A stretch of 64,000 nt of DNA from Candidatus Krumholzibacteriota bacterium (lineage in GTDB: Bacteria; Krumholzibacteriota; Krumholzibacteriia; Krumholzibacteriales; WJIX01): positions 920,560 through 984,559 of the forward strand of contig JAXHNR010000001.1 in the NCBI GenBank assembly GCA_034520215.1, written 5' to 3'. Positions 12,219-19,026 of the stretch are shown here, piece by piece. Under the pieces are notes generated by a model, which was not told where the DNA came from, did not search any database, and saw only the letters and a list, made by a program, of their open reading frames with translations. Position 1 is the stretch's first letter, and the number at the start of each line of letters is the position of its first letter. A program made the translations under genes and the position numbers.

Positions 12219-13610
12219 ATGGAAGTTAAAATCGCGGGGTACAATATTGATTCTACTCTTATAGATGATGCCAGCGGCAGAAGCGATTCTTTTACTCCGG
12301 AGATTATTTCAGCGTCTTACGCGAGGATAAGCCGGGACCCGAGAAATATAAACCTGCTAAGAAGAGAAGCCAGAGAAGCTGTCAAGAAAGCAAGGGCTTC
12401 AAATGAAAAGATCGTTTTTGGACTCGGACACTCTTCTGTCGCGGAACACGCGGTTTTTAATTTCGATATTATGGATATATCCCGTCTTGCCGTTGAACAA
12501 CTCGAGAGCTTCAGGCTTGCCTCTTTCACGGAAAAATCTCAACGCTATATTAAGATTAGAAAGGATATTTTTATTCCTGAAGAGATTAAAGCCTGCGGAC
12601 TGGAGGAACAATTCAAAGAAGTTATGGTATACCTTTCTGATAAATATGATCAGTTATATTCTAAGATGCTAGGGAACGGAGTAAATAAATATGTTGCCAG
12701 AGAAGATGCGAGATACTTGCTGCCGCTTGCCGTAAAAACCCAACTTGGAATGACGGTAAACGCCAGAGAACTTGAATATATGATAAGCAGGCTTGCTTCT
12801 CACAAGCTTTCGGAATTAAATGAACTTGCTGAAAAGCTATGTGATATAGCCAAAAAAATCGCTCCATCTCTGGTACGCTATCCCGAAGCAGTCGATTATT
12901 TTTCAAACAAATTCAGAACCAGAAGTAATATTGAGGAAAATTCAAGGGGTTTCTCCCGCAGCGGCCTGGAGGAAGTCAAGCTGATTTCTGACACTAAGGA
13001 CTGCGACAATATTCTTGTCGCGGCGCTGCTTTTTTCTTCGACTGATATTGGAGCCTCAGAAGCCAGAAAAAAGGCTGCGGGCATGAGTGAAGAAGAGCAA
13101 GCCTTCATTATCAAGAGTACGATGGAAAATATGCAGCCTCATGATTCTGTCTGGCGAGAATTCGAGCATGTACATCTGTTGTTTGAGGTTATTGTTTCAG
13201 CATCGTGTTTCGCTCAGCTCAAGAGGCATAGGATGGCCACTGTTACCCCGCAACCTTATTGCAGATCACTTGGTGTAAAGATCCCTGAATCGGTTAAGAG
13301 ATCCGGTGCTTCAGAAGAATTCATGAAAGCTGCAGAAATGTCCGGTGAGCTCTACGATAGAATAAAAGATAAGATGACTTTTGCGGCGGATTACGCTTCT
13401 CTCAACTCCAGCAGACGAAGGGTTCTTTTTGATGTAAACCTGCGAGAGCTCTATAATTTCTCGAGATTGAGGAGTGACAAGCACGCGCAGTGGGAGATCA
13501 GAGCACTGTCTGAGAAAATGTGCGAAATATCTAAAAGAGGGCTAAAAGCCGGCGGCATGCTTCTAGGCGGCAAAGACGATTTCTCTGATATGATGAAAAA
13601 GCTGTACTGA
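12219..13610 (+). CDS. thyX: Two-domain flavin-dependent thymidylate synthase ThyX
   Basis: 463 aa, about twice the usual 220-250 of ThyX. ThyX methylates dUMP to dTMP using methylenetetrahydrofolate and FAD. Two ThyX-like domains are visible. In the N-terminal one (about 1-240) the RHRxxSxNExSxRY signature appears as SFRLASFTEKSQRY (97-110): the first two residues are lost, but S102, E105, S107, R109 and Y110 are kept. In the C-terminal one (about 250-463) RHR is intact (336-338) but the rest reads MATVTPQPYCR, losing S, E and S. The C-terminal domain keeps NLREL and RLRSDKHAQWEIR, whereas the N-terminal equivalent is eroded. Long ThyX proteins also occur in other phyla such as Chlamydiae, as I recall. 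No thyA is seen. Confidence 0.9.
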   Translation: MEVKIAGYNIDSTLIDDASGRSDSFTPEIISASYARISRDPRNINLLRREAREAVKKARASNEKIVFGLGHSSVAEHAVFNFDIMDISRLAVEQLESFRLASFTEKSQRYIKIRKDIFIPEEIKACGLEEQFKEVMVYLSDKYDQLYSKMLGNGVNKYVAREDARYLLPLAVKTQLGMTVNARELEYMISRLASHKLSELNELAEKLCDIAKKIAPSLVRYPEAVDYFSNKFRTRSNIEENSRGFSRSGLEEVKLISDTKDCDNILVAALLFSSTDIGASEARKKAAGMSEEEQAFIIKSTMENMQPHDSVWREFEHVHLLFEVIVSASCFAQLKRHRMATVTPQPYCRSLGVKIPESVKRSGASEEFMKAAEMSGELYDRIKDKMTFAADYASLNSSRRRVLFDVNLRELYNFSRLRSDKHAQWEIRALSEKMCEISKRGLKAGGMLLGGKDDFSDMMKKLY

Positions 13611-13717: not shown

Positions 13718-14003
13718 CAGGACATTCCCCGAGAATCAGGGCAATATTTTAGTAACGGCATAACTATCGAGTAATTACCCATATTGATAAGTGGAATTGA
13801 TGTTTAGTTTCTATCCGGCTATTGGTATTGTCAAAAACGCCGTCTATTTCCCCTGCGAGGAAATAGCGCCTCCCGCTCTCAGGCTCGCTCTTCCCCATTT
13901 CCTTGTGGAAATCAAGAATCCATGCCCGCTCGTCTTCCGAGAGGGTTTTGAAATACCAATAGCCGGATATACAAAGGAATGTTAAAAATTGGGGAACCTC
14001 CAC
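13718..14003 (+). mobile_element. MITE-like repeat, copy 1
   Basis: About 286 bp, one of three near-identical copies in the same orientation. Its ends (CAGGACATTCCCC and GGGGAACCTCCAC) are imperfect inverted repeats of the consensus TTGGAGTTTCCCC. Inside is an 18-bp perfect inverted repeat (13812-13829 with 13952-13969) enclosing smaller hairpins such as CTATTTCC/GGAAATAG, so the transcript or single strand would fold strongly. A 79-codon minus-strand frame (13764-14003) spans most of it, but copy 2 breaks that frame. No target duplication is clear for this copy. It sits between thyX and the LPP20 operon. Confidence 0.8.
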
Positions 14004-14134
14004 ATACGGAAATAGCTTGACAGGTAATTTATTTAATGTCTATTGTGCAAGGAACCAGTGTAACGCGCGTTTTTAGAAAGTGTTATAACAGAGTAGCATG
14101 GGGGTCTGGCACATCTCTTTAAAAGGAGGCTGAT

Positions 14135-14695
14135 ATGAAGAACGTTATATCTGTTCTGATGTGCTTTGCGATATTGTTTGTAGGGTGTGGTTCAGAGGCG
14201 CCTGATAAAAGCACTATGGGCAAAGACAGCGGTGATCTTCCGGACTGGGTCTTAAATCCGAAGCAGGTTGATTCAGAGAAAACTATTTACGGCGTTGGGA
14301 TTGTTTCAGGGGTTAAGAACAAAGCGCTTGCTATAAAGACAGCAGAGAACAGAGCTATATCAAGTATTGCGCGTGTATTCAGAGTGGAAGTTGAAGCTAT
14401 GATGGAAGATTACGCTTCGTCGACCCTTTCGGGTGATTTGAATTCCAGTGAAGAGCAGGATATCACTAATGTTCAAAGAACGTTAATCGACCAGTCCCTC
14501 AGCGGTGTTGTCGTCGAAAACAGGTTCGTGGATGAAGACGGAAGTGTTTATGTCAGGGCAAAACTCGATTTTGAAACATTCGAGAAAAATCTTGAAAAAC
14601 TCAACACAATCGATTTGAAGATGAAGGAATATGTAAAGAGTAATGCGGAGGAAGCTTTCGGACGACTCGACGTCCAAATAGAGAAGGGGGATTGA
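14135..14695 (+). CDS. LPP20-family lipoprotein
   Basis: 186 aa. Lipoprotein signal peptide with lipobox LFVGC (Cys near residue 19). After a linker comes a single LPP20-like domain: LPDWVLNP, IYGVGIVSG, then A-rich KTAENRAISSIARVF and a C-terminal VYVRAKLDFETFEKNLEKL. LPP20-type proteins are outer-membrane-anchored envelope lipoproteins of unclear function. It heads a tight operon with an LpoB-like gene (18 bp on), a COG3014-like gene and a second LPP20-type gene. An AAGGAGG-like ribosome site precedes the ATG. Confidence 0.82.
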   Translation: MKNVISVLMCFAILFVGCGSEAPDKSTMGKDSGDLPDWVLNPKQVDSEKTIYGVGIVSGVKNKALAIKTAENRAISSIARVFRVEVEAMMEDYASSTLSGDLNSSEEQDITNVQRTLIDQSLSGVVVENRFVDEDGSVYVRAKLDFETFEKNLEKLNTIDLKMKEYVKSNAEEAFGRLDVQIEKGD

Positions 14696-14713
14696 TCAAA
14701 AAAAGGAGAAAGA

Positions 14714-15322
14714 ATGAAGTATAAATTATTCTATCTGATGCTGTGTATGGTCATGCTTTTTTCTCTCGGCTGTGGCGGTCCATCGGTTAATGTTACAAGA
14801 ACCGAAGCGGATACTGTTACAGACCTGAGTGGTGACTGGAACGACACCGATTCAAGAATGGTTTCTGAAGAGATGATACCTGATTGTCTTTCGAGGCCCT
14901 GGCTTGGTGATTTCACTTCAGAAAATATGAAAAAGCCTGTTGTGATAGTTGGTTACATAAGGAATAAAACAGATGAGCATATCGCCACGGAAACTTTCGT
15001 TAATGACCTTGAGCGAGAATTAGTTAACAGCGGTAAGGTTTCTTTTGTGGCTGAAAAGGAGATCAGAGAAGCACTCAGGGATGAAAAATACGATCAGTCG
15101 ATGAACGCTTCTGCCGAAACTATGAAAGAAATGGGAAGAGAATTAGGAGCTGACTTTATGTTATTCGGTTCAATTAATTCCATTACTGATCAAATAGAAG
15201 GCAAGAAGGCTAAATTTTACCAGATTGATCTTGAACTTATTGATATTGAAACGAATGAAAAGGTTTGGTTGGGACAGAAGAAAATCAAGAAGATTGTAGA
15301 AAGGGATAAATACAGGTTTTAG
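14714..15322 (+). CDS. LpoB-like penicillin-binding protein activator lipoprotein
   Basis: 202 aa. Lipobox SLGC (Cys at about 20). The remainder is the LpoB/FlgO-type alpha/beta domain: PVVIVGYIRNKTDEHI, ETFVNDLERELVNSG, VSFVAEKEIREALRDE, then GRELGADFMLFGSINSI and VWLGQKKIKK. In enterobacteria LpoB spans from the outer membrane to stimulate PBP1b; the role here is inferred from family and from neighbouring lipoproteins. An AAAAGGAGA site precedes the ATG. It is the second gene of the operon. Confidence 0.85.
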   Translation: MKYKLFYLMLCMVMLFSLGCGGPSVNVTRTEADTVTDLSGDWNDTDSRMVSEEMIPDCLSRPWLGDFTSENMKKPVVIVGYIRNKTDEHIATETFVNDLERELVNSGKVSFVAEKEIREALRDEKYDQSMNASAETMKEMGRELGADFMLFGSINSITDQIEGKKAKFYQIDLELIDIETNEKVWLGQKKIKKIVERDKYRF

Positions 15323-15354
15323 ACAACTTAATTTTGTTCAGCCAGCAGTATAAA

Positions 15355-16689
15355 ATGAAGCTGTTTTACAAGTATCTGATAGCTTTCTCATTTGTAACAT
15401 TCGTGTTCCTTGGATGCGCCTCTACACTCGAGAAAGAGATGGAAGTAGACTCATTTCTTCCCCGCGGCGATTACTCAAGTGCTATAAAGGAACTTTCATC
15501 TAATATCGAAGTTTTCGGTACCAAAAACAGACTCCTTTATTTGTTGAACGCGGGAGTCATTCACTTCTACTCGGATAATTTCGCTGAAAGTAACAATTAC
15601 TTCTCTGAGGCGAATAAACTATCCGAAATATTATATACTAAAAGTGTTTCAAACGAAGCTGCCGGTTTGATGAATCCGAACTTAATTCCGTATAATGGTG
15701 AGGATTATGAGAATGTTATGATAAATGTTTTTACGGCTTTTAATTATATTAAACTTGGAATGATAGAAGAGGCGGGTGTGGAAGCAAGAATAATAAATTC
15801 GAAGCTGAAATTACTTACACAGAAATACGAATCGGAGAATAAATATAAGAATGATGCTCTGGGCAGATATCTCAGCGGAATCATTTATGAAACCCGCGGT
15901 GATATAAACAACGCTTATATTTCATATAAGAAGGCGTATGAGGCCTATGTCGATTATAAGAAGATGTTTGAATTCAAAATACCCGGGCAGATCGAAATTG
16001 ATATACTCCGTTTGGCCGAGCGTCTTGGATTTAGCGAGCAGTTCAAAACTTACAGCAAAAGGTTTAATGCCGATTCAATAAAGATAGAAAATGGAAATAG
16101 TGAAATCATTGTGTTTGCTATGACAGGGCTATGCCCATATAAGAAAGAATTCGAGACTAAGTTCTCGCGTGCTGATAAAGAAGGTAAAACTCATACATTT
16201 CAGCTTCTCATTCCGAAACTTATTGAAAGGGGGAGCGCGGTCGGGAATGTGACTGTCAAGTGTGAAAATGATTCGGCGAGCATTGTAAGAAATGCGCAGA
16301 TCATTGAGAATATTTCAAAAATAGCTATAAAAAATATGTCTGATAAGATGCCTCAAATTCTGATTAAGGCCTGGCTTAGGGCTTTTACCAAAAAGAAAGC
16401 TTCTGATAAAATGAAAGAAAAAGTTGATACAGGAAATGTACTTGGTAATTTGCTCGTCGGAGCAGTTACTGACGGTGTCGCTGAAGAGTTGACTCACGCT
16501 GATATAAGATGTTGGAGAACACTTCCGTCCAGGATCTATTTTAGAAGAATTCAGGTTAACCCCGGGAGTTATGATCTAGAAGTTGAACTCAGGGATAAAT
16601 ACGGGGACTGTCTTGAAAAGATAACAAGGAAAGGGATAGTGGTTGAAAATGAAAGAAAGTATTTTGTCTTCGTTGAAAGGTTTATTTAG
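15355..16689 (+). CDS. COG3014-like TPR-containing lipoprotein
   Basis: 444 aa. A TTG at 15334 would add seven residues, but the ATG at 15355 gives a proper lipoprotein signal peptide with FLGC as lipobox. The N-terminal half is TPR-like (LLNAGVIHFYSDNFAESNNYFSEA, YLSGIIYETRGDINNAYISYKKA). The C-terminal half resembles the uncharacterised COG3014 family found next to LPP20 and LpoB genes. It ends in a beta-rich portion (YDLEVELRDKYGD, KYFVFVERF). The next gene starts inside its last 14 codons, implying coupling. Confidence 0.72.
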   Translation: MKLFYKYLIAFSFVTFVFLGCASTLEKEMEVDSFLPRGDYSSAIKELSSNIEVFGTKNRLLYLLNAGVIHFYSDNFAESNNYFSEANKLSEILYTKSVSNEAAGLMNPNLIPYNGEDYENVMINVFTAFNYIKLGMIEEAGVEARIINSKLKLLTQKYESENKYKNDALGRYLSGIIYETRGDINNAYISYKKAYEAYVDYKKMFEFKIPGQIEIDILRLAERLGFSEQFKTYSKRFNADSIKIENGNSEIIVFAMTGLCPYKKEFETKFSRADKEGKTHTFQLLIPKLIERGSAVGNVTVKCENDSASIVRNAQIIENISKIAIKNMSDKMPQILIKAWLRAFTKKKASDKMKEKVDTGNVLGNLLVGAVTDGVAEELTHADIRCWRTLPSRIYFRRIQVNPGSYDLEVELRDKYGDCLEKITRKGIVVENERKYFVFVERFI

Positions 16690-17716
16690 TATACCGATTT
16701 TATCGTTTATTCTGCTGACAATATATTTCAGTTCTTGTTCAGGTGTTAACGCTGATAATATTAAATGGGTAGATAAAATAGATGTCTACTATCCGGAGAA
16801 AGTGTATTTGACGGGGTTGGGGATTGGTGATACCAAAGAAAAAGCAGATAACAGAGCATTTCAGAATATTTCCAAATCTATCAAATTACATGTACGAAGC
16901 GATGAACTATCAAAACGGGAATATCAGCAATCAGGAAACCGAAAGAGTAAGTCGACTTTCAGCTATGAAGAGAAGATCAGGGTAGAGACAGAAACTGTAC
17001 TGGAGAACGCTTCTATCGTAAAGCACGGATATGATGAATCCAAAGAAATGTACTATTCCCTGGCGGCTTTGAGAAAAGATAAATATTCAGACATTCTTTC
17101 AAGCAAAATCGAAGAATCTCAGAAGAGAGGGGCCAAGCTTTTGGCCGCTATTGAGAAAGAAGAGTCTAAGGTCATCAAACTTGGAAATATGTTCGATTTA
17201 GAAAGAGAAATAGAATTCCAACGAAACGCATTTGCCGTCTTGCGGGTGGTTTCAGATAATTATTCCAAGTATAAACCCCGGCCGGATCCTCTTCAGGTTG
17301 ATAAAATGATCAACGATTTTCTGTTAAACAAATTTGTTTTTTCTCTGAGGGTAAAAGGTGATATGACAGAAGAAATAAACAGCATCTTAAGTGATGTCTT
17401 GACGAGAGAGGGTTATTATATTTCCGGTCAAAGAGGGAAAAGTTCTGATGTTGTGATAGACGGGAACATGAAAATAAGAAGGATGCCGGGGAGTGGAAAA
17501 AGATGGGTGCTTTTGAGCTGGAAATTTGATCTGAGTTTCACCGACAGCAGAAGCGGAGAAATTATCTTAAGCTACAGCATGCAGGACAGGCAGCAACAGC
17601 CGTCTGTCGAGATGGCAAGAGAAAGGATACTTTATCATTTCAGGGAAGATTACGCGGAGGATGTAATCTCCAGGTTCGAGCAGAAACTTCACGGGTATGT
17701 AAACAGAGGAAAATAG
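16649..17716 (+). CDS. Second LPP20-type lipoprotein with extra C-terminal domain
   Basis: About 355 aa. N-terminal hydrophobic segment ending SSCSG (candidate lipidated Cys near residue 31 from this start), an LPP20-like domain (YLTGLGIGDTKEKADNRAFQNISKSI, then a V/I-rich second half), a charged helical stretch and a C-terminal alpha/beta domain (about 230-355, SDVVIDGNMKIRRM, WKFDLSFTDSRSGEI). The frame overlaps the upstream gene by 41 bases. A TTG at 16643 is an alternative start. It closes the four-gene lipoprotein operon; repeat copy 2 starts 41 bp after its stop. Confidence 0.7.
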   Translation: MKESILSSLKGLFSIPILSFILLTIYFSSCSGVNADNIKWVDKIDVYYPEKVYLTGLGIGDTKEKADNRAFQNISKSIKLHVRSDELSKREYQQSGNRKSKSTFSYEEKIRVETETVLENASIVKHGYDESKEMYYSLAALRKDKYSDILSSKIEESQKRGAKLLAAIEKEESKVIKLGNMFDLEREIEFQRNAFAVLRVVSDNYSKYKPRPDPLQVDKMINDFLLNKFVFSLRVKGDMTEEINSILSDVLTREGYYISGQRGKSSDVVIDGNMKIRRMPGSGKRWVLLSWKFDLSFTDSRSGEIILSYSMQDRQQQPSVEMARERILYHFREDYAEDVISRFEQKLHGYVNRGK

Positions 17717-17748
17717 AATAACTTCCGTTCACTTTTAAACGGCAATAT

Positions 17749-17757
17749 GACAGTTAA
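17749..17757 (+). repeat. Left target-site duplication of repeat copy 2
   Basis: GACAGTTAA here recurs at 18045-18053, immediately flanking copy 2 on both sides. A 9-bp direct repeat at both borders is the mark of transposition. Confidence 0.65.
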
Positions 17758-18044
17758 CAGGACATTCCCCAAAAATCATGGCAATATTTTAGTAACGGCA
17801 TAACTATCAAGTGATTACCCATATTGATAAGTGGAATTGATATTTAGTTTCTATCCGGCTATTGGTATTATCAAAAACGCCGTCTATTTCCCCTGCGAGG
17901 AAATAGCGTCTCCCGCTCTCAGACTCGCTCTTTCCCATTTCCTTGGGGGAAATGGGAAAACCATGCCCGCTCGTCTTCCGAGAGGGTTTTGAAATACCAA
18001 TAGCCGGATATACAAAGGAATGTAATAAATTGGGGAAACTCCAA
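17758..18044 (+). mobile_element. MITE-like repeat, copy 2 (with 9-bp target duplication)
   Basis: 287 bp, same orientation as copies 1 and 3. Left end CAGGACATTCCCC, right end GGGGAAACTCCAA, whose reverse complement TTGGAGTTTCCCC equals the left end of copy 3. Flanked by GACAGTTAA on both sides. It differs from copies 1 and 3 around 17940-17960, which shifts the minus-strand frame seen in copy 1. No transposase is encoded, so it would be moved in trans. It lies between the lipoprotein operon and tRNA-Leu. Confidence 0.85.
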
Positions 18045-18053
18045 GACAGTTAA
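18045..18053 (+). repeat. Right target-site duplication of repeat copy 2
   Basis: Second copy of GACAGTTAA, directly after the element end at 18044; see 17749-17757. Confidence 0.65.
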
Positions 18054-18109
18054 TAATTGCTGTATTTCCGTCAGCAGAGTATCATAATTGAGTGAATAGA
18101 TTGGAATAT

Positions 18110-18197
18110 TGGTGCCGGAGGCGGGAGTTGAACCCGCATGAAGCCAGGCTTCGGGGGATTTTGAGTCCCCTGCGTCTACCAATTTCACCACTCCGGC
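18110..18197 (-). tRNA. tRNA-Leu (anticodon CAA)
   Basis: Minus-strand 88-nt tRNA including an encoded CCA. Acceptor arms GCCGGAG and CTCCGGC pair fully, the D arm is followed by a 5-bp anticodon stem GGGGA/TCCCC with loop CTCAAAA giving anticodon CAA, there is a long class II variable arm, and the T arm reads GCGGG-TTCAACT-CCCGC. It decodes UUG. It is bracketed by two direct copies of the MITE-like repeat. Confidence 0.95.
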
Positions 18198-18205
18198 ATA
18201 TAAAA

Positions 18206-18234
18206 AAAATATTCTAAAATTTGTGCGGTGTCAA
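18206..18234 (-). promoter_or_regulatory. Sigma70-type promoter of tRNA-Leu
   Basis: On the minus strand TTGACA (18229-18234) and TATTTT (18206-18211) are separated by 17 bp, placing the transcription start just upstream of the tRNA. Repeat copy 3 begins only 12 bp upstream of the -35 box. Confidence 0.6.
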
Positions 18235-18245
18235 GCTAAGTATAT

Positions 18246-18532
18246 TTGGAGTTTCCCCGAAAATCAGGGCGATATTTTAGTAATGGCATAACTATCGAGT
18301 AATTACCAATATTGATAAGTGGAATTGATGTTTAGTTTCTATCCGGCTATTGGTATTGTCAAAAACGCCGTCTATTTCCCCTGCGAGGAAATAGCGTCTC
18401 CCGCTCTTAGGGCCCGCTCTTCCCCATTTCCTTGTGGAAATCAAGAATCCATGCCCGCTCGTCTTCCGAGAGGGTTTTGAAATACCAATAGCCGGATATA
18501 CAAAGGAATGTTAAAATTGGGGAAAGTCCAAA
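18246..18532 (+). mobile_element. MITE-like repeat, copy 3
   Basis: About 287 bp, left end TTGGAGTTTCCCC, right end GGGGAAAGTCCAA. The interior closely follows copy 1, including the long inverted repeat TATCCGGCTATTGGTATT and its complement near the right side. No clear target duplication. Same orientation as copy 2, so the two form a direct repeat pair around tRNA-Leu. Confidence 0.82.
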
Positions 18533-18630
18533 TTAATGTGACAGGTTGACGGCAAGTTTTGTTATAATATTAAATGCGGTAATGTTAATATAATATATTG
18601 GTTTCATCTTGAGAATTAAGGCGATTTAGA

Positions 18631-19026
18631 ATGTATGATGAAGAAATAACGACCGGAAAGGTTCTTGTTGTAGATGACGACCTGCAGATACTCAGGCTAA
18701 TTAGAAGAGGACTTGAATCATCAGATATGAATCTGGAAATTTTTACGACGAACAAGGGATCAGAAGCTCCTGTTTTATGCGAAAATGTCATGCCTGATAT
18801 AGTTATACTTGATATTCTAATACCCGGTGAGAATACATGTCAGATAATATCTCAAATATGCGATGATTCTAATAAAGCGAAACCCCTTATAATGTTAATT
18901 TCGGGGCATTATGGAGAAATCAAAAGAATGATAGAGTACGGAGCTGATGATTTTCTTACAAAACCATTTGAAATCTCAATACTCATAAAAAAAGTAAGAG
19001 AGATGCTGAGGGGCAGGAATTCTTGA
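18631..19026 (+). CDS. Single-domain response regulator
   Basis: 131 aa, receiver domain only. Acidic pocket VVDDDLQ near residue 12, phosphoacceptor D61 in LDILIPGE, ISGH at the Ser/Thr switch, and KPFE with the conserved Lys near the end. It has a short N-terminal extension (MYDEEITTGK). No output domain, so it would act through protein contacts or be a phosphorelay intermediate. No kinase is adjacent. A TATAAT-like box lies at 18563-18568, about 60 bp upstream, but its -35 partner is unclear. Confidence 0.86.
   Translation: MYDEEITTGKVLVVDDDLQILRLIRRGLESSDMNLEIFTTNKGSEAPVLCENVMPDIVILDILIPGENTCQIISQICDDSNKAKPLIMLISGHYGEIKRMIEYGADDFLTKPFEISILIKKVREMLRGRNS

Follow-up and report, generated by a model that had tools for sequence, protein, structure and literature searches.

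MITEAba12 of Acinetobacter is a short, non-coding miniature inverted-repeat transposable element (MITE) that shares its terminal inverted repeats (TIRs) with an insertion sequence (IS), has target-site duplications (TSDs) of the 9-bp class and lies between genes in many copies (PMC6382973; reviewed in PMC10969869). Correia elements of Neisseria are also small TIR elements near promoters, and inversion has been reported for them (PMC10969869). Insertion sequences, too, are reported to invert by ectopic recombination between their terminal inverted repeats (PMC3004938). Here we describe a family that resembles these elements in a 64,000-nucleotide stretch of a Candidatus Krumholzibacteriota bacterium (GCA_034520215.1, contig JAXHNR010000001.1, positions 920,560 to 984,559), called the window below. 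An earlier note on this DNA had pointed out three copies of a MITE-like repeat. That they belong to a MITE family is secure, and we give a probability of about 0.88 to the fuller reading, in which a non-autonomous family is moved in trans by an IS4-type transposase, inserts upstream of promoters and carries a captured, invertible core. Unlike MITEAba12, for which no sequence trend is reported (PMC6382973), this family is inserted at a locked position upstream of -35 boxes, and its core inverts and is also found without the MITE in other phyla. Correia elements carry their own promoters, whereas this element adjoins a host promoter and only its core flips. In the reported IS inversions the whole IS flips between its TIRs (PMC3004938), whereas here an inner module between internal repeats does so.

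The three copies lie in one orientation at the places first given for them and are 91-96% identical in pairwise comparison (Table 1). The limits of copies 1 and 2 stand as first drawn, but copy 3 ends one base earlier, at 18531 rather than 18532; similarly, the left end originally read for the family, TTGGAGTTTCCCC, is that of copy 3 only, while copies 1 and 2 start with CAGGACATTCCCC. The 9-bp target duplication is intact at copy 2. At copy 1 we instead find a decayed 10-bp duplication (ACACAGAAAT / ATACGGAAAT, matching at 8/10 positions), and copy 3 has none. Inside the element, the 18-bp inverted repeat TATCCGGCTATTGGTATT / AATACCAATAGCCGGATA is perfect, as the earlier note had it. The element folds at -98.5 kcal/mol, with a z score of about -5.2 against shuffles on either strand, and each copy forms one long structure.

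The window's genome (G000; 2.60 Mb in 2 contigs, 97% complete) holds about 80 further copies. With copy 3 as query we recovered 56 matching pieces, 20 of them near-full copies, and R1, a covariance model built for the core, found 83 copies, which at ~290 bp per copy make up about 0.9% of the genome. Elements are ~246-315 bp long and non-coding, and differences in loop length among copies disrupt every reading frame; a ~60-aa minus-strand frame in the core of one copy is interrupted elsewhere by loop-length frameshifts and stops. Both ends could be placed in 70/83 copies, TIR to TIR, the TIRs of the window's type being imperfect (8/13 positions). Exact TSDs of at least 7 bp abut the ends in 49 of these 70 copies (range 7-14 bp, mostly 8-14, mode 9-10), compared with 1.2% when left flanks are paired with the right flanks of other copies. 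This excess shows that the element was inserted by a transposase that makes staggered cuts. The many further copies, and the TSDs at most of them, uphold the earlier note's proposal of insertion rather than duplication by recombination, and its picture of a non-coding MITE moved in trans is supported by the dozens of non-coding copies, the TSDs and an autonomous IS in relatives, described below.

Sigma70 promoters lie just outward of the elements. TTGAC occurs within 30 bp outward of an element end in 42/148 flanks (500 shuffles: mean 3.9, maximum 11), nearly always 11-15 bp from the end and just past the TSD, and the opposite-strand motif GTCAA occurs in only 3. When 39 flanks are aligned on TTGAC, A stands at the sixth position in 67%, and at the right distance a -10-like hexamer stands out (T 72%, then A 67% and, further on, T 67%). 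The looser motif TTGA(A/C/T) is found in 72 flanks against 18 expected. The best two predicted promoters around the window's copies lie 13 bp to the right of copy 1 and 11 bp to the left of copy 3. The simplest reading is that the association reflects insertion targeting, for which the literature searched held no precedent.

We searched the genomes of the family for the Pfam domain DDE_Tnp_1. In the same-genus genome G003, an intact 421-aa transposase lies in an IS of ~1.43 kb bounded by TTGGACATTCCCC and CAGGACATTCCCC; the latter end is identical to the MITE left end at 13/13 bases. Homologous transposases (79% and 82% identity) occur in two genomes of the same order, G010 and G016. A full-length transposon with the 13-bp MITE end, which the earlier note had suggested looking for, exists in relatives at both ranks. 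The IS copies also share the promoter spacing, TTGACA standing at a distance of 12 bp (G003) or 14 bp (G010) from an IS end, which links MITE and IS independently of end sequence. No clear TSD surrounds the IS copies in these two genomes. The Y-2-R-3-E-6-K signature is characteristic of the IS4 family and is present in all three intact or near-intact transposases, which exceed the Pfam DDE_Tnp_1 cut-off; the domain, the signature, the ~1.43-kb length and the short TIRs are all IS4-like. Unlike members of that family, however, the partner falls below every NCBIfam IS4 cut-off (best model 39 bits vs 160). On sequence grounds we regard it as a predicted IS4-type enzyme, not filed as an IS4 member and without a named subgroup. 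A transposase of the G003 type probably moved the MITE.

The transposases of the window's genome are relics. One set (C2:36417-38790) is interrupted by in-frame stops and by an IS3-like open reading frame (ORF); the corresponding locus, L153 (C2:35000-40000), is a dead IS4-type copy holding an intact-looking 287-aa IS3-type integrase ORF. An end of relic L147, TGGAGTTTCCCCAATTTTTTAA, is close to the MITE right end, and the more distant relics L147 and L148 end in GGAGTTTCCCCA(A/T)TTTTT, which also resembles it. In the same-genus genome G001, a ~680-aa transposase-like ORF with a DDE_Tnp_1 match (L150, G001:C39) is unrelated to the MITE partner.

The family falls into at least two subfamilies, of which the main ones are family 1, to which the window's copies belong, and family 2, with a core 75% identical and related arms. 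A few copies have a third stem sequence, and some are chimeras; L050 (C1:581506-581625) combines a family-2 left arm with a family-1 right arm, and L123 (C2:172861-172980), like L050, joins arms or stems of different subfamilies, pointing to recombination between copies. A 124-bp derivative (L143:905-1045; C1:579300-579433) consists of MITE ends and arms without a core, with TTGAC about 12-15 bp outside each end. The inner hairpin of the core exists in three interchangeable versions (L001-L004 cores), and window copies 1 and 3 carry a mismatched hybrid, the left half of one version with the right half of another.

In 7/27 analysable family-1 copies, and in no fewer than 3 copies of family 2, the core is inverted between the 18-bp repeats, the breakpoints falling within the inner inverted repeat. 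A tree built from the arms only places at least two orientation changes on well-supported branches, and parsimony on a weak tree counts five. As the orientation rare in family 1 is that of family 2 and of the elements in the same-family genome G004, the window's copies probably hold the derived state. The likely route of inversion is recombination, or a template switch, across the stem.

The core is not confined to the MITE. G004 contains 14 cores, two of which (L053, L054) lie outside any MITE, between long inverted repeats of a different sequence; no core was found in three same-genus genomes, G001-G003, all of them fragmented. An exact pattern of the core's conserved parts occurs in at least 118 stretches of the GTDB genome collection. 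Among the matches listed, records named Omnitrophota, lineages of Patescibacteria, WOR-3, Actinomycetota and Deltaproteobacteria recur and others appear once each; the singletons may be contamination of metagenome-assembled genomes. The genomes of 41 core loci hold 1-26 copies each, among them those of Omnitrophota, Patescibacteria, WOR-3 and Actinomycetota, and in one evenly sampled phylum 8/145 genomes have the core. In an alignment of 75 cores, which was fitted to the structure and so favours the covariation score, all 28 pairs change on both sides, with 590 both-side-change cells against 178 in shuffled alignments. Paired cells amount to 93.9%, compared with 61.6% after shuffling and ~52-54% when the partner column is shifted by one. 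Like repetitive extragenic palindrome (REP) elements and their associated tyrosine transposases (RAYTs; PMC2817692), the stand-alone core is palindromic and intergenic and has many copies, but it differs from them in its length of ~110 bp, its three-helix fold and the lack of an associated Y1 gene. Neither the window element nor 8 foreign loci matched Rfam, apart from a tRNA and one sub-threshold chance hit. The exact core pattern had no match in viral contigs, leaving carriage by phages unsupported, and we found no description of the core in the literature searched. Integron attC sites were also considered; the core ends, CAAAAC ... GTTTTG, depart from the boxes RYYYAAC ... GTTRRRY, and integrase genes were not searched. 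By rough gene calls, stand-alone cores lie mostly 3' of a stop codon (orientation +/+ 24, -/- 7), a position that would suit an RNA structure at 3' ends and could equally stem from biased insertion.

The sequences flanking stand-alone cores form an inverted repeat that exceeds all 20 shuffles in 71/77 loci. In fifteen copies of G092 (Patescibacteria), arms pair within a copy (median score 14.5) but not with those of other copies (median 5, 95% at 8). Two of the copies have arms unrelated to each other although their cores are 100% identical. Perfect stems of at least 11 bp are otherwise nearly absent from the sampled G092 loci, and at two loci a relative without the element shows no palindrome nor, within the limits set by 73-79% identity, both arms. 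Pre-existing palindromes are thus unlikely targets of the core, given the rarity of such stems and the empty sites, even if the relatives are only 73-79% identical. Old orthologous copies show unpaired drift in their arms (L315). These comparisons suggest that arm complementarity arises at insertion and then decays.

Sites can also differ in content between close relatives. At the L317 locus, G124 holds another kind of hairpin element, whose own arms measure 19-20 bp. The L309 locus is different in each of G124, G113 and G122, while in G121 it is short and hairpin-free. Among close relatives the hairpin elements in this one intergenic slot 3' of a stop codon (L309, L346, L347, L348, L349) vary, and G121 has none there, which looks as though such slots were repeatedly refilled. 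A second, diverged hairpin element, CTCTCGGCTCGC...TTGCTCGCCTCCGAGAG (L309:653-780 and L346:1992-2099), has the same overall architecture and many copies in G092 and its relatives.

In the mechanism we favour for this MITE of ~280-310 bp, an IS4-type DDE transposase encoded elsewhere would recognise ends of ~13-20 bp, one like CAGGACATTCCCC and the other like TTGGAGTTTCCCCAATTTTT, and would excise or copy the element. A staggered cut at insertion would duplicate 8-14 bp, most often 9-10. Insertion would favour DNA directly upstream of a sigma70 -35 box (the UP-element region), and the element would consequently fall between genes and leave them unbroken. The interior would be a hairpin module that was captured and is also dispersed on its own; the long stem that closes it would double as the substrate for core inversion. 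Several observations weigh against this account. No recognisable TSD is present in 20/70 copies, and an orthologous empty site for the MITE itself was not recovered. The window's genome lacks an intact transposase despite being 97% complete, and because it holds relics only, the family may nowadays be immobile there. Each MITE end resembles a different IS end (CAGGACATT- or TTGGAGTTT-type), which makes it uncertain which enzyme acted. The NCBIfam scores given above count on the same side.

Other origins of the copies and of their placement can be weighed against these data. Two copies stand 200 bp apart around one tRNA gene, and the chimeras at C1:581506 and C2:172861 show that elements recombine, as would be expected had the copies arisen by segmental duplication or recombination instead of transposition; yet the ~80 copies are scattered, have sharp common ends and share no flanking sequence, and their copy-specific TSDs refute this origin, which we consider extremely improbable. 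A hairpin-rich element might be a repeat of the REP/BIME (bacterial interspersed mosaic element) type, mobilised through its hairpins by a Y1 (RAYT) transposase, and Y1_Tnp genes do occur in 17/26 checked genomes with stand-alone cores. Y1 elements, however, lack the TIRs and TSDs that the MITE has; neither the window's genome nor G004 yielded a Y1 gene, 20 Y1 genes have no core within 1.5 kb, and several core-rich genomes have no Y1 gene, so that spread by Y1 is very unlikely. Selection could in principle account for the promoter association, if random insertions survived only in intergenic DNA, where promoters lie, and the elements are indeed mostly intergenic, as are many bacterial MITEs. 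Survival alone would leave the distance unfixed, whereas the promoter motifs on both sides point outward and keep to 11-15 bp from the element edge, with the strand bias described above, a spacing that the IS copies share. Because the distance is fixed, we disfavour selection after random insertion and think it improbable.

Two further proposals concern the core. The core may be a functional RNA, a 3'-untranslated-region or terminator-like structure spread by the MITE as useful cargo; the very strong covariation and the sense-strand position of most stand-alone cores 3' of stop codons speak for this. Both core orientations occur inside the MITE, however, the distribution is patchy, Rfam offers no match, close relatives exchange the core for other hairpins at one site, and template-switch repair of inverted repeats can also yield covariation. 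We treat a functional RNA as a tentative possibility. Somewhat doubtful in our judgement is that the core is a self-standing mobile element, patchy over several phyla, whose insertion makes its own outer stem by adding, opposite the native flank, that flank's inverted copy, perhaps through fold-back extension of the element's 3' end along the neighbouring strand; the window MITE would then be a hybrid in which IS4-type ends captured such a core. If this were true of the core, we know of no mechanism whereby insertion itself writes an inverted flank.

Coordinates of the window features are collected in Table 1. Between copies 1 and 2 lies a cluster of lipoprotein genes (14135-17716; LPP20 / LpoB / unassigned / LPP20), and a ThyX-like gene occupies 12219-13610.

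Table 1. Features of the three MITE copies and their surroundings (window coordinates).
Feature	Position	Strand	Details
MITE copy 1	13718-14003	+	family 1, core in flipped orientation; TSD of 10 bp, decayed; ends CAGGACATTCCCC / GGGGAACCTCCAC
Structured core of copy 1	13832-13950	+	covariance-model match G000:C1:934391-934509
Host promoter TTGACA-18-TATTGT	14017-14046	+	starts 13 bp past copy 1; upstream of LPP20 lipoprotein gene 14135-14695
TSD left of copy 2	17749-17757	+	GACAGTTAA
MITE copy 2	17758-18044	+	ends CAGGACATTCCCC / GGGGAAACTCCAA
Structured core of copy 2	17872-17991	+	covariance-model match G000:C1:938431-938550
TSD right of copy 2	18045-18053	+	GACAGTTAA
Weak -35/-10-like pair TTGCTG-17-TATCAT	18057-18085	+	right of copy 2 TSD; read by eye
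Host promoter TTGACA-17-TATTTT of tRNA-Leu(CAA)	18206-18234	-	-35 box 11 bp from copy 3
MITE copy 3	18246-18531	+	ends TTGGAGTTTCCCC / GGGGAAAGTCCAA; no TSD
Structured core of copy 3 with flanking 18-bp inverted repeats	18338-18497	+	query 101-259; covariance-model match 18360-18479
-35-like box TTGACG	18546-18551	+	14 bp past copy 3; upstream of response-regulator gene at 18631

The MITE family is new, and what sets it apart is the combination of promoter-upstream targeting with an invertible, captured core. By landing a constant distance ahead of -35 boxes, such a transposon spares genes and can reset the input of a promoter; it becomes possible to test whether promoter DNA itself or the RNA polymerase bound there is what a DDE transposase recognises. 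More surprising is the wider core family, which forms a separate lead: strongly covarying, without an Rfam match, and present in several phyla, where identical copies stand between different self-complementary flanks.

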